Under the pieces are notes generated by a model, which had not been told where the DNA came from, did not search any database, and saw nothing but the letters and a program-made list of their open reading frames with translations. A stretch of 38,429 nt of DNA from the NCBI GenBank assembly GCA_021443405.1, contig JABUUA010000018.1:9564-47992 (forward strand), written 5' to 3'. The translations under genes were made by a program, and so were the position numbers. How positions within the stretch are numbered: position 1 is the stretch's first letter; each line of letters begins with the position of its first letter. Positions 16,896 through 29,402 of this stretch are shown here, piece by piece. This DNA comes from Bacteroidaceae bacterium. Lineage in GTDB: Bacteria > Bacteroidota > Bacteroidia > Bacteroidales > Bacteroidaceae.

Positions 16896-17049
16896 AGACA
16901 TACGGACGTCTGCTTCGAAACATAAGGTTGTCTGCGCTCAAACATAAGGATGTTTGGGCCGAAACATAAGGACGCCTTCAATGATTCGTCGGGATGTCTT
17001 CGATGATTCGTCGGGACTTCTGCATCGATTCGACGAAGCACCGAAACGA
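16896..17049. repeat. Seven-unit array with exact 22-nt period (16-nt core + 6-nt linker)
   Basis: Cores at 16896, 16918, 16940, 16962, 16984, 17006, 17028: AGACATACGGACGTCT, AAACATAAGGTTGTCT, AAACATAAGGATGTTT, AAACATAAGGACGCCT, ATTCGTCGGGATGTCT, ATTCGTCGGGACTTCT, ATTCGACGAAGCACCG. Confidence 0.85.
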
Positions 17050-20746: not shown

Positions 20747-20864
20747 CCGTCGATGTCGGGATGATTCGGCTCGCGTTTCTGTAGGTCTCAAGATTGTTGC
20801 TGTTCAAAACGGACCTCAGCGTAAGCTTCTGCCAAGCCCTTTTCCGCGACGTCTCTATGCAAAA

Positions 20865-20947
20865 ATGGGGAAAATGTGAAACTTTCTATTGGTTTTAATG
20901 GAGAAAATGTGAAATTGTGTCCTGTTACTAATGCGGATAATGTGAAA
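20865..20947 (+). repeat. Three 17-nt direct repeats at exact 33-nt spacing upstream of ATPase gene
   Basis: ATGGGGAAAATGTGAAA (20865), ATGGAGAAAATGTGAAA (20898), ATGCGGATAATGTGAAA (20931). Confidence 0.9.
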
Positions 20948-20985: not shown

Positions 20986-22356
20986 ATGGAACAGCTCTTA
21001 CGAAGAAAGATTGACGCTTACCTTGTAAACTGGAAGAATACTATAGACAAGAAGCCGCTCATAGTTAAGGGTGCTCGCCAGATTGGCAAGACGCGCTCCA
21101 TTGAATGGTTTGCTGTTCGCAACTATAAGTATGTTGTTCCAATCAATTTTGTAGAGCAAAAGAAATACAAAGATATCTTCAATGATGGATATGAGGTAGA
21201 TGTTATTCTGAAGAATATATCGTTGTTGAACCCTGATTTCCGTTTCATTCCGGGTGAAACGCTTTTCTTCTTCGATGAGTTACAAGCATGTCCTAACTGT
21301 GCTACCGCATTGAAGTTCTTCAAACTTGATGGCAGATTTGATGTTATCTGCTCAGGTTCCCTAATGGGTATCAACTATAAAGAGATAGAATCCAACAGTG
21401 TAGGCTATAAAGAGGACTATGAAATGCACTCAATGGATTTTGAGGAGTTCTTGTGGGCGAAAGGTTATGATGATGATTTCATCGAGGAACTTTATCAGTG
21501 TATGCTGACTGTAAAACCCCTTTCCTCCCTGCGAATGGATGTTCTTTTCGAATTGTTCCGTGATTATGCCACTATTGGAGGAATGCCTGAAGTAGTAAAT
21601 ACGTATGTTAGGAACAAGAATTTTAGTGGAACCTTAGGCATTCAGCGACAACTGCTCAAAGACTATGAAGAGGACATAACCAAATATGTGGAAGGATTGG
21701 ATAAGGCAAAGGTGAAGGCTGTATATAACCATATTTCCACATTCCTGGCGAAAGAGAATAAACGTTTCCAGATAACCAAGATGGGCAGAAATGCAAGAAA
21801 CAGGGATTATGCCGGTTGCGTCGAGTGGCTTGCAGACGCTGGCGTGGTAAATTTGTGCTATTGTTTACATCAGCCTGAGCTTCCGCTTAAAGGGAACTAT
21901 GACCCCAAACTATATAAAATCTACTACAAAGACACAGGACTCCTTATTGCGTCGTTAGATGAAGAAGCTCAGGAAGACTTGAGGGCCAATAAAAACCTGG
22001 GGACTTACAAAGGGGCGATATATGAGAATATAGTGGGAGACATGCTAGTAAAGCAAGGATATAAACTCTACTACTATAATAGTGATAAGCCGGCTCTTGA
22101 GATGGATTTCTTTGTGAGAGACGCACATTCATTGATTCCTGTGGAGGTGAAATCGACGGATGGTGCAACGGCGTCCCTCAATAAATTACTGAAAGAGGAT
22201 AAATATCTCGATATGAAATACGGAATCAAGCTGGGATATAAGAACATAGGCTTCAATGGGAAGTTCTACACATTCCCATACTTCCTGACGTTTTTGCTGA
22301 AAAGATTTATAGCAGAACATTATAATGCGCCTATCGGAAACCATCCAGCGAAGTAA
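20986..22356 (+). CDS. AAA-type ATP-binding protein with DUF4143-like C-terminus
   Basis: P-loop VKGARQIGKTRSIE, Walker B-like ETLFFFDELQACP, CSGSLMGI, nuclease-like C-terminal ALEMDFFVRD...PVEVKS. Visibly AT-richer than flanks. Confidence 0.88.
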   Translation: MEQLLRRKIDAYLVNWKNTIDKKPLIVKGARQIGKTRSIEWFAVRNYKYVVPINFVEQKKYKDIFNDGYEVDVILKNISLLNPDFRFIPGETLFFFDELQACPNCATALKFFKLDGRFDVICSGSLMGINYKEIESNSVGYKEDYEMHSMDFEEFLWAKGYDDDFIEELYQCMLTVKPLSSLRMDVLFELFRDYATIGGMPEVVNTYVRNKNFSGTLGIQRQLLKDYEEDITKYVEGLDKAKVKAVYNHISTFLAKENKRFQITKMGRNARNRDYAGCVEWLADAGVVNLCYCLHQPELPLKGNYDPKLYKIYYKDTGLLIASLDEEAQEDLRANKNLGTYKGAIYENIVGDMLVKQGYKLYYYNSDKPALEMDFFVRDAHSLIPVEVKSTDGATASLNKLLKEDKYLDMKYGIKLGYKNIGFNGKFYTFPYFLTFLLKRFIAEHYNAPIGNHPAK

Positions 22357-23017: not shown

Positions 23018-23488
23018 CTACAAGTCGTAATCGATGCTGGTTATCTCGAGCTCCACCATGCCTTGCGGAACTTTGATGCTGGCCACGTCGCCAACTTTCT
23101 TGCCCAGCAAGCCTTTGGCGATGGGTGTTCCGATGGAGATTTTGCCTTCGCGAAGGTTGGCCTCGGTCTCACTCACGATGGTGTATTTCATCGCCATCTT
23201 GTTCTTCACGTTCTTCAGACCTACTGTGGCGAGGATGTTGACCACGGAAGTGTCGATGGACTTCGGGTCGATAATCTTCGCTTCACGGATTGTCTGCTTG
23301 AGCATGGCGATTTCCGTCTCCAGTTTTCCCTGGGCCTCTTTGGCAGCGTCGTACTCTGCGTTCTCGCTGAGGTCGCCTTTGTCGCGCGCCTCTGCAATGG
23401 CGGCACTGGCGGCGAGACGGTCCACGCTCTCCATTTTCTGCAGTTTGGCCACGAGCGTGTCGTAGCCCTTTTGTGACATGTAAGCCAT
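23018..23488 (-). CDS. greA: Transcription elongation factor GreA
   Basis: ARDKGDLSENAEYDAAKEAQG; SIGTPIAKGLLGKKVGD. Confidence 0.96.
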   Translation of the reverse strand: MAYMSQKGYDTLVAKLQKMESVDRLAASAAIAEARDKGDLSENAEYDAAKEAQGKLETEIAMLKQTIREAKIIDPKSIDTSVVNILATVGLKNVKNKMAMKYTIVSETEANLREGKISIGTPIAKGLLGKKVGDVASIKVPQGMVELEITSIDYDL

Positions 23489-23697: not shown

Positions 23698-23785
23698 AGA
23701 CATGCGGACGAATGGACTCAGACGATAGGTCGAATGAGGTCAGACAATAGGTCGTCTTGGCTCAGTCGACCTATTGTCTAATTAC
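23698..23785. repeat. Four-unit 22-nt array
   Basis: Cores AGACATGCGGACGAAT (23698), AGACGATAGGTCGAAT (23720), AGACAATAGGTCGTCT (23742), AGTCGACCTATTGTCT (23764, inverted copy). Confidence 0.85.
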
Positions 23786-23787
23786 GC

Positions 23788-23824
23788 ACGACGGGCCGTC
23801 AATCAGCGATCAACGGCCCGTCGT
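23788..23824. terminator. 12-bp inverted repeat, terminator for TlpA-like gene
   Basis: ACGACGGGCCGT ... ACGGCCCGTCGT just beyond the stop at 23841. Confidence 0.6.
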
Positions 23825-23840: not shown

Positions 23841-24989
23841 TTACAGAAGTTTCTTGATTTCTTGTTCCACGTCGCCCATCAGCTCCATGCGGCCCACGAG
23901 ATTGTTGCCGCGGTCGATGAGGAACCATGTGGGCACCTGCTGGAGATTGTATATCTGCACGATGTCGTTCGCCATTCCCTCGCGATTCCACACGGTGATC
24001 CAGGGCAGATTATGCGCCAGCGTCTTCCACTGATGCTCGTCTGGGTCGAGCGACACCTGGTAGATTTCCAGTCCTTGTGCGTGGTATTTGTTGTAAAGTT
24101 CGCGTAGCGCGATGGTGCGTTCCTGGCTGCCTTTGAGCGAGAGTGCGGTGAAGTCGAGCATCACCACACTGCCTTTCAGTTCGCTCAGGCGGCGCTCCTG
24201 TCCCGAAATATCGGGGAAGCCCATGTCGATGATGCCGGTCTCCTGCACCTTCTCGTCGTCGAGGTTGATGGAGAGTCCGCGTTGCCGCGTGTTTTTATGT
24301 CCCTGCATGGCGATGTTGCACAGGTTCTGCGTGCGCAGACTGCCGGGATATCGCTCGAGCCAAGCGTTGGCGATGGCCGTGAACCACGTTACATCCTTCG
24401 CGTCCGCCACGGGGTCGAAGAGCAGACGTCCAGCCAGCACTTGGAACAGCGCGTAATACGACGACGGAAGGTGGTAGAAGTTCTGCACGAAATTTATCTT
24501 CACGTCGGTCTTGTAGTCGGCGATAAGTGCTTGGATGGCCGCGTCGCGCTCCTCCAGCGTGCGGGTGCGGTCGTCCACGGTACGGCGGATGGCGCGCGTC
24601 AGCGTGTCGAGTTTGAGGGTGAGCATGCGGATGGTGTCGCAACTTCCACTGCCCTCCACGGTGTAGCCGACCGCCATCTTCGGCAGCGACGCCCGCACGG
24701 TGATGGTCTCGGTACTGTCCACGGAGAGGTTGACAATCTGTTCGCCGATGCGAAGCCTGTAGAATTCCGGGTTTCCTATCGTGTCGCCTGCGAAGTCGAA
24801 TCGGCCCTCGGCGTCCAATTTCACGGAGTCGATGGCCACGGGTCCGTGGTCAACGGTCATGTGTTCCAAGTAAAGCGTGGTGTCGTCGGCCTCGGTAATC
24901 TGGCCGACGATATGGAATTTGCCGCCTTCTTGCTTGCAGGCGACCAGAGTGAGCAGCGCCAAAGCTGCCAATGCTATCCGTTTCTTCAT
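23841..24989 (-). CDS. TlpA/thioredoxin-fold lipoprotein with DUF4369-like N-terminus; CXXC motif absent
   Basis: Start at [22 protein letters not shown] (lipobox); the longer upstream ORF (to 25529) is antisense to pnp. Thioredoxin-like C-terminus ([27 protein letters not shown]). Confidence 0.85.
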
Positions 24990-25131
24990 AGTGATTGCAA
25001 AGGTAGCAATTATTCGATGGAAATCAAAGCCAAAGTCCGATTTATTTGTGTCCGCAGTCCCTCGTCGGCATGTCTTGCCCGCCGCAAAACGATGTATCGG
25101 GCAGCGTGTTTGGCGGATAATCGGCATTTTG

Positions 25132-25163
25132 TTTGGCGTCTCCGCCTTTTTTTCGTATCTTTG
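25132..25163 (+). promoter_or_regulatory. Promoter TTTG-N20-TATCTTTG for pnp
   Basis: TTTG 25132-25135 and TATCTTTG 25156-25163. Confidence 0.7.
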
Positions 25164-25205
25164 TGCGCATTTTATGCGATATACATTATTTATTATTTTA
25201 TACAG

Positions 25206-27479
25206 ATGAACGTAATTACAAAGAAAGTCGAGTTGCCTGATGGAAGAACCATCAGCATCGAGACCGGGAAATTGGCCAAGCAGGCCGACGGCTCCGTGAT
25301 GTTGCGTATGAACAACACCATGCTGCTCGCCACTGTTTGTGCCGCCAAAGATGCCGTTCCCGGTACAGATTTCATGCCCTTGCAGGTAGAGTATCGCGAG
25401 AAGTACAGCGCCGCTGGTCGCTTCCCTGGTGGTTTCACCAAGCGCGAGGGTAAGGCGAATGACGACGAAATCCTGACCTGTCGTCTGGTGGACCGCGCCC
25501 TGCGTCCCCTTTTCCCCAGCAACTATCACGCTGAGGTCTATGTCAATGTTATCTTGTTCTCAGCCGACGGCGTGGACATGCCCGATGCCTTGGCAGGTTT
25601 TGCTGCCAGCGCAGCACTGTCGGTGAGCGATATACCTTGGGAAGGTCCCATCAGTGAGGTGCGCGTAGCCCGCATCGATGGTGCCTACGTGATTAACCCC
25701 ACGTTCGAGCAACTCAAGCAGGCCGATATGGACCTGATGGTGGGTGCCACCGAGGAAAACATCATGATGGTGGAAGGTGAGATGGACGAGGTGAGCGAGC
25801 AAGACCTGCTCGGCGCCCTGAAAGCCGCCCACGACGCCATCAAGCCCATGTGCCGTCTGCAGAAGGAACTGGCCAAGGAACTGGGCAAAGACGTGAAGCG
25901 CGAGTATTGTCACGAAATCAATGACGAGGCGCTGCAGGCTCAGGTCAAGGACGAGTGCTATCAGCCCGCCTACGACGTGACCAAGCAGGCGCTGGAGAAG
26001 CACGCCCGTGCCGCTGCCTTCGAGCAGATTCGCGAGGACTTCAAGGTACGCTACGCCGAGGCGCATGCCGACATGACTCCCGAGGAACTCGAGGAGAAGA
26101 ACGGTTTGATTGACCGCTACTACCACGACGTGGAGAAGGACGCCATGCGTCGCTGCATCCTCGACGAGGGCACGCGTCTCGACGGTCGTAAGACGGACGA
26201 GATTCGTCCCATCTGGTGTGAGGTGGATCCTCTGCCCGGTCCTCACGGCTCGGCTATCTTCACCCGCGGTGAGACGCAGTCGCTGAGCACCACCACCCTC
26301 GGTACAAAGATGGACGAGAAACTGGTGGACGACGTGCTCGACAAGAGCTACCAGCGCTTCCTGCTTCACTACAACTTCCCCCCCTTCTCTACGGGTGAGG
26401 CCAAGGCTCAGCGCGGTGTAGGCCGTCGCGAGATTGGTCACGGCCATCTGGCTTGGCGCGGTCTGAAGGGTCAGATTCCCGCCGACTATCCCTACACCGT
26501 GCGTGTGGTGAGCGACATCCTCGAGAGCAACGGCTCAAGTTCTATGGCCACCGTTTGCGCGGGATGCCTGAGCTTGATGGATGCCGGCGTTCCCTTGAAG
26601 AGCCCCGTCAGCGGTATCGCCATGGGTCTTATCAAGAATCCCGGCGAAGACAAGTACGCAGTGCTGAGCGATATTCTCGGCGACGAGGACCACTTGGGCG
26701 ATATGGACTTCAAGACCACCGGTACGCCCAAGGGCTTGACCGCTACTCAGATGGACATCAAGTGCGACGGTCTGTCGTACGAAATACTGGAGAAGGCGCT
26801 GATGCAGGCTAAGGCCGGTCGTGAGCACATCCTTGGAGAGATGCTGAAGACTCTGGGCGCTCCGCGTCCCGAGCTCAAGCCCCATGTTCCTCGCATCGAG
26901 CAGATGATTATCCCGAAAGAGTTCATCGGTGCTGTGATTGGCCCCGGCGGTAAGATTATCCAGGGCATGCAGGAGGAGACGGGTGCAGTCATCACCATCG
27001 ACGAGGAAGACGGCGTAGGCAAGATTCAGGTGAGCGGTAGCAACAAAGACGTCATCGACGCTGCCATCGCGAAGATTAAAGCCATCGTGGCCGTGCCCGA
27101 GATTGGCGAAATCTACGAGGGTCCTGTGAAGAACATCCAGCCTTTCGGTTGCTTCGTTGAGTTTATGCCTGGCAAGGATGGTCTGGTTCACATCAGTGAA
27201 ATCGACTGGAAGCGCCTCGAGACCGTCGAGGAGGCTGGCATCAAGGAAGGCGACATCATGCGCGTGAAACTCCTTGACATCGACCCCAAGACCGGTAAGT
27301 TCAAGCTCTCACGCCGTGTGCTGATTGAGAAGCCCGAAGGTTATGTGGAGCGTGAGCGCCGTCCGCGCCCCGAGCGTGGTGAGCGTCGTCCTCGTCCCGA
27401 GCGCGGTGAACGTCGCGAGCGTGGCGAGTTCCGTCCCCGTCCCGAACAGGACAACAATGAGACGCCCGCTGCCGAGTAA
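25206..27479 (+). CDS. pnp: Polyribonucleotide nucleotidyltransferase
   Basis: [33 protein letters not shown] domain [24 protein letters not shown]1 domain; Arg-rich tail. Longer ORF start at 24282 rejected. Confidence 0.97.
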
Positions 27480-29314: not shown

Positions 29315-29402
29315 AGACATGCGGACGAGTGACGTCACACGTCCTTATGTGTGAGGCGAGACGTCCTTATGTGTTGGCCCACACGTCCGCATGTCTTTTT
29401 TT
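29315..29402. repeat. Four-unit 22-nt array
   Basis: Cores AGACATGCGGACGAGT (29315), ACACGTCCTTATGTGT (29337), AGACGTCCTTATGTGT (29359), ACACGTCCGCATGTCT (29381). Confidence 0.85.

Follow-up and report, generated by a model that had tools for sequence, protein, structure and literature searches.

Phased arrays of quasi-palindromic 16-bp cores on a 22-bp grid in a Prevotella-like bacterium and their possible recognition as duplex DNA

Background

RAYT transposases and hairpins are the usual explanation for the dispersed palindromic repeats of bacterial genomes. REP/BIME elements with RAYT comprise many short imperfect palindromes, which are clustered, intergenic and species-specific, occur in both orientations, and have been proposed to serve as protein-binding sites and to be non-autonomous mobile DNA (PMC2817692). 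CGTC-tagged REPs, including the Neisseria dRS3 element, have no dedicated transposase, lie at 3' ends and between convergent or unidirectional genes, can form in-frame gene inserts coding for 20-30 residues and are known from the Bacteroidetes among other phyla (PMC3733652). Their structure consists of an unpaired CGTC tag, an 8-9-bp stem and a 4-5-nt loop, and they occur mostly as head-head dimers, with clusters being rare (PMC3733652). The BrickBuilt element of Porphyromonas gingivalis is a minisatellite-MITE composed of 23-nt direct repeats without spacers, with a leader and tail and IS5-like TIRs, and is present in 19 copies (PMC4596501).

Here an array located between greA and tlpA in a 38,429-nucleotide stretch of DNA (the window) is described, together with the family to which it belongs. 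Searches of the open-access literature turned up no account of such 22-bp phased palindrome arrays from the Bacteroidales, and this large array family, present in many Prevotella-like gut bacteria, has apparently not been described previously. It represents a common class of repeat in a dominant gut lineage, seemingly without RAYT and hairpins, and is subject to an exact helical-phase constraint.

The array between greA and tlpA

The features of the window that bear on the array are as follows.

23698..23779, no strand assigned: four-unit array (the subject of this study), with cores at 23698-23713, 23720-23735, 23742-23757 and 23764-23779 and 6-nt linkers
23018..23488, minus strand: greA (GreA_GreB_N and GreA_GreB), downstream neighbour of the array
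23841..25529, minus strand: tlpA (TlpA-like thioredoxin/DUF4369), upstream neighbour of the array
23786..23823: two more positions of the 22-nt phase, beyond the array itself, with a 12-bp inverted repeat, ACGACGGGCCGT..ACGGCCCGTCGT, at 23788-23799 and 23813-23824
16896..17021, no strand assigned: related array of four plus-type cores from 16896, then, in the same 22-nt phase, weak units of the ATTCGTCGGGA type (16984 and 17006)
29315..29396, no strand assigned: related array of four units, the first of plus type and the other three of minus type

Direct reading of the letters gives a core AGACATGCGGACGAAT with linker ggactc for unit 1 (23698), AGACGATAGGTCGAAT with gaggtc for unit 2 (23720), AGACAATAGGTCGTCT with tggctc for unit 3 (23742) and AGTCGACCTATTGTCT, followed by aattac, for unit 4 (23764). 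The final core stops at 23779, with 23780-23785 occupying the slot of a next linker. The cores are 16-nt quasi-palindromes, of plus type in units 1-3 and minus type in unit 4. The first-pass annotation had placed units at these same four positions, and its further statements, that units 3 and 4 are reverse complements of each other and that unit 1 nearly matches unit 1 of the array at 29315, hold with one mismatch and with one base of difference, respectively.

As tlpA and greA are both encoded on the minus strand, the array lies downstream of the former and upstream of the latter. The tlpA stop is at 23841, and the listed open reading frame is probably overlong at its 5' end. The site had been described as lying between a greA promoter and a TlpA terminator; the position in the tlpA-greA gap is borne out, while the terminator is unproven, since no T-run follows the 12-bp inverted repeat on the minus strand in the gap between tlpA and the array. 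This inverted repeat resembles the weaker outer-unit type, nnnCGTCSGGACGnnn, found around arrays genome-wide.

When scanned with a family-trained weight matrix, the window shows three runs of four cores in phase; 200 windows simulated by a first-order Markov model yielded 277 single matches and no runs of two or more, confirming that the phased cores are real rather than due to chance. The array at 16896 starts 47 nt past the 3' end of the upstream plus-strand gene, and that at 29315 terminates in CATGTCT followed by a T-run. A CRISPR array, which would be recognised by long identical repeats, unique spacers of ~30 nt and adjacent cas genes, was rejected given the 16 + 6 nt structure, the divergent repeats and the recurrence of linkers such as GAGCTC. 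The window also carries an imperfect 33-nt tandem repeat (AATGGGGAAAATGTGAAACTG...; 20864-20947), shortly upstream of a DUF4143/AAA_14 ATPase gene at 20986, and a GC-rich 45/27-nt tandem repeat (GAGCGCCGTC...; 27352-27445).

The array family in the host genome

The host genome (G000) is a Prevotella-like MAG of 2.63 Mb, 83% complete. The core AGACATNNGGACGTNT is matched 35 times, with no matches to the reversed pattern used as a control, and AGACATAAGGACGTCT, with up to three mismatches, is matched 224 times, compared to 19 for its control. Parsing yielded 70 arrays with 310 units, mostly four to six per array, the number of arrays being approximate (about 70) as it derives from pattern searches and retrieved stretches. 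The consensus is A-N-A-C-R-T-N-N-G-G-A-Y-G-T-N-T plus a 6-nt linker, most commonly GAGCTC. Successive strong cores within 120 nt of each other (n = 204) are spaced at 22 nt in 194 cases, 44 nt in seven, 66 nt in two and 111 nt in one, so that 203 of the 204 spacings are exact multiples of 22, while the cores occur almost equally in plus (163) and minus (145) orientation. The first-pass annotation had suggested that the element tolerates inversion of its cores but not a change of phase. Strict phase and the use of both orientations are evident, but inversion as an event is not: the aligned units of sister-species arrays (see below) required none, and quasi-palindromic cores need not have been inverted to appear in either orientation.

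Conservation extends outward past both array ends, in phase, as weaker nnnCGTCSGGACGnnn dyads, and the ends are symmetric. Common leader or tail flanks are absent for most of the host-genome arrays; flanks are shared by a few array pairs only, which led to a single subfamily with TIR-like ends, AATCGGTCATTAGGACG ... CTTCCTAATGAACGATT. The middle of the arrays is more conserved than the edges, and neighbouring units within an array are often alike. A second small element type, containing ATTCGTCYRGACGAAT and TTTTTCTTAGAAGAAT, occurs beside 22-nt cores in both orientations (L064:2435-2516, L082:2390-2427 and L109:2501-2560).

Placement relative to genes

The arrays of the host genome are mostly intergenic and sit at the 3' ends of genes. 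Using our own ORF calls, which are approximate (tlpA in the window was miscalled), and comparison gaps of at least 100 nt, convergent genes flank 25/55 array gaps as opposed to 7/51 other gaps (OR 5.2, p = 6e-4), while arrays are depleted between divergent genes (5/55 versus 21/51; p = 2e-4). In tandem gene pairs, the median distance from the array to the upstream 3' end is 59 nt, compared to 183 nt to the next start. A convergent bias was not clear in other genomes. The proteins encoded beside the arrays have diverse housekeeping functions and include no recurrent transposase or integrase: among 108 neighbouring proteins, none of the 211 Pfam families occurs in more than three.

Duplex DNA or RNA hairpin

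The 3'-end placement would suit arrays acting at the RNA level, in the form of transcribed hairpins that terminate transcription or stabilise the 3' ends of mRNAs, a role proposed for many REPs. Single arrays also fold better than base-shuffled sequences (mean z -3.7), as would any dyad. They are, however, less stably folded than random assemblies of their own 22-nt units (-0.334 versus -0.408 kcal/mol per nt, p = 2e-5), and complementarity of the facing arms on either side of a linker is rarer than expected (0.18 versus 0.32). Arm positions 2 and 15 likewise pair no more than expected (0.30 versus 0.35), and complementary arm pairing within or between units was rejected, since it did not exceed expectation for almost any offset. 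The relation of core orientation to transcription is weak (49 versus 72), and no Rfam match was found at the array, a tRNA being the sole Rfam match. Hairpins or terminators are thus unlikely for these arrays, and an RNA-level role as a whole appears highly improbable; the weaker folding than in random assemblies and the reduced complementarity of facing arms argue instead for recognition as duplex DNA.

The same geometry in other genomes

Among 139 genomes of the same genus, the exact host-genome core is restricted to the host genome itself. Three ANAC-N8-GTNT units at 22-nt spacing (up to one mismatch) are, by comparison, present in 44 of the 139, with centres that are species-specific (for example ACACAGCGTGCCGTGT, ATACGTATAGACGTGT, ATACGACCGGTCGTAT, AGACAATGTATTGTCT and AAACATTACTTTGTTT). 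The ANAC-N8-GTNT geometry is also strong in other Bacteroidales families (G216, G343, G413, G441 and G149), and the 22-nt spacing is found in G038, G040 and G011, while G444 and G195 have 5-nt linkers and thus a period of 21. Arrays elsewhere reach 17 units. A strict three-unit AAAC search gave no matches in 396 genomes, most of which belong to other orders of the phylum. As the searches fixed ANAC arms, other arm types are undercounted and the apparent universality of the arms is partly one of ascertainment; a reversed-arm control, TNTG-N8-CANA (itself palindromic), gave 7-12 matches at a 22-nt period in G022, G066 and G126, suggesting arrays with other arms. An architecture common to the genus and order, with differing cores, is what the first-pass annotation missed.

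Orthologous greA-upstream regions, which had been singled out for comparison, were also inspected. Unit-wise change with retention of phase was observed, in the sister species' own arrays, and the greA-tlpA array was absent from the four relatives recognised with the same gene order, with the gap measuring 203 and 192 nt in two of these relatives compared to 352 nt here. A scan of genome contigs with tlpA recovered two distant Prevotella loci only.

Ten matches were found in viral contigs, of which one is Bacteroidales-like (L150) and the rest are unrelated single arrays. The related contigs L157 (at 8182) and L159 (at 215) carry near-identical 22-nt units, AAACCGTCCATGGTTT-aatttt and AAACGATGGAAGGTTT-aattct, probably representing an unrelated operator-like array.

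Comparison of two sister species

The sister species G038 and G040 share long collinear stretches, with ~89% identity over two 5-7-kb stretches and a weighted mean of ~78% over all compared pairs. Five arrays are kept at orthologous places with their phase retained, and at least three further arrays occur in one sister species only, two of which start on a stop codon or directly beside one. The statistics that follow rest on the five retained loci, and G000, G038 and G040 are incomplete MAGs. Cores have diverged at 55 of 256 positions compared to 31 of 66 for linkers (p = 7e-5), and core positions 3-4 (A-C) are nearly invariant (3/64 changed). At arm positions 2 and 15, 17 changes are GC>AT and none AT>GC, as opposed to 169:131 in the flanks (p = 1.4e-4); this one-directional change could be mutational, for example through deamination at GTCT, or could reflect homogenisation by conversion.

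These data bear on three further explanations. A site-specific recombinase array, in which the 6-nt linkers are crossovers between inverted half-sites and cores are inverted without a change of phase, would account for both orientations being common and for the 8-6-8 tiling, which places inverted half-sites around every linker. Crossover regions must match, however, whereas the linkers evolve fastest, the facing arms avoid complementarity, the retained orthologous arrays show no inversion and no recombinase is associated among the neighbours, making this explanation scarcely credible. Neutral satellites arising from replication slippage and gene conversion, with no recognising protein, would be compatible with the better-conserved array centres and the similarity of adjacent units, but are largely excluded by the conservation of cores over linkers. 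The exact phase despite free linker sequence, the near-invariant A-C, the geometry shared by unrelated cores and the 3'-end bias likewise speak against such an origin, which is considered improbable.

The third is a selfish, non-autonomous element (MITE- or REPIN-like), in which the dyads would be transposase or recombinase sites spread by transposition with no host function, and the differing cores would derive from a separate founder per lineage followed by homogenisation through turnover. The presence of whole arrays in one sister species only is in keeping with this, as are the symmetric ends, the TIR-like ends of one subfamily and one retained array which forms a ~20-residue in-frame insert in RibD in both sister species (L273:9793-10872 and L265:9748-10878) and which is absent from solved RibD structures. 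Repeated elements of ~130 bp in G343 (L171, L172, L175, L170 and L173), in which a conserved left flank, ATTGAAAATGARNNNTTAATATTCTCTTCA, is followed by four AAACTACCGGTAGTTT-type units, also fit. Against it, the RAYT/Y1 transposase (PF01797) is absent from the incomplete MAGs G000, G216, G225, G275 and G149, no transposase or integrase family recurs beside the arrays, target-site duplications were not seen, and seeding alone does not explain retained arrays that changed in place and in one direction. A purely selfish origin is therefore possible but doubtful. Other repeats are abundant in the intergenic regions around the G343 elements. Another of the retained arrays, a phased one of four units, occurs inside a GSCFA-like coding sequence, a gene recognised by eye, in both sister species (L283:12380-12461; L263).

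Recognition by a putative fast-evolving factor

The explanation preferred here, with moderate confidence, is that the arrays form a REP/BIME-like class, each being a discrete set of sites recognised in double-stranded DNA, at two-turn spacing, by a putative fast-evolving factor. It builds on the observed geometry, copy number, 3'-end placement, species-specific centres and constant arms and spacing, and on the conservation of cores over linkers, the one-directional arm change, gain and loss, gene insertion and the avoidance of hairpins; from these we infer a protein acting as a dimer, its alignment on one face of the helix, and co-evolution. Quasi-palindromic sites of 16 bp, three to six per array, alternate with 6-bp linkers and form a 22-bp grid corresponding to two helical turns. 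Each core, as a dyad, would be bound as duplex by a dimer of one putative sequence-specific protein, and the two-turn repeat would place all dimers on one face of the helix. If dyad and phase are both needed for binding, either core orientation would be tolerated and a change in spacing would not, and linker sequence would be free while linker length is fixed. Mixed orientation would thus arise without inversion events, since a dyad can be read either way.

The exact 22-base grid and the different 'word' of each species suggest a fast-changing DNA-binding protein as the reader. The specificity of this putative protein would shift between species, with its sites following. In a test of fit to own-species models, G040 units gained 6.6 bits on average and G038 units -0.2; co-evolution is accordingly supported but not settled, as G038 units lack a clearly better fit to the G038 model. 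The arrays may spread in the form of discrete elements and survive where harm is least, at gene 3' ends, and the protein may belong to the host, with an architectural or regulatory role, or be a mobilising enzyme of the element itself. That the Bacteroidales encode a new fast-evolving DNA-binding factor, architectural or mobilising, which is rewired between sister species with hundreds of sites following, is proposed tentatively. The recognised sequence turns over at the species level while the geometry stays, and the sister species, single-copy loci and defined spacing offer handles for asking which protein would read the arrays. They also make it possible to ask what lets hundreds of sites change in concert, and if arrays at 3' ends shape supercoiling or transcription between convergent genes.

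Comparison with described repeat families

Compared with MITEs, which have terminal inverted repeats with target-site duplication, the arrays show TIR-like ends in one subfamily, generally symmetric ends and no clear target-site duplication. As with BrickBuilt (PMC4596501), the arrays are found in the Bacteroidales and are intergenic and species-restricted, and their short tandem units each span about two helical turns. They differ, however, in their period of 22, their palindromic cores with linkers and their occurrence in both orientations, and identity with BrickBuilt was rejected on the basis of the unit, flanks and TIRs.

The arrays share with CGTC-tagged REPs (PMC3733652) the 3'-end and convergent placement, an in-frame gene insert and the lack of a transposase, but are multi-unit and phase-locked, with ANAC/GTNT arms and species-varying centres. 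CGTC is found within some array units, though not as a constant tag, and the cores of many other species do not contain it.

Like REP/BIME elements (PMC2817692), they are abundant short imperfect palindromes, dispersed between genes in both orientations (70 arrays, 310 units). Unlike these, their consensus has no GTAG tag, stable stem-loops are lacking and hairpins are avoided, and their 16-bp cores follow a strict 22-bp grid with 6-nt linkers in a host MAG in which no Y1/RAYT gene was found. A RAYT/Y1 partner was dropped from consideration, the gene being absent from several array-bearing genomes. As they have neither the tags, the stems nor the RAYT of these families, the arrays stand outside them while being REP-like in behaviour.
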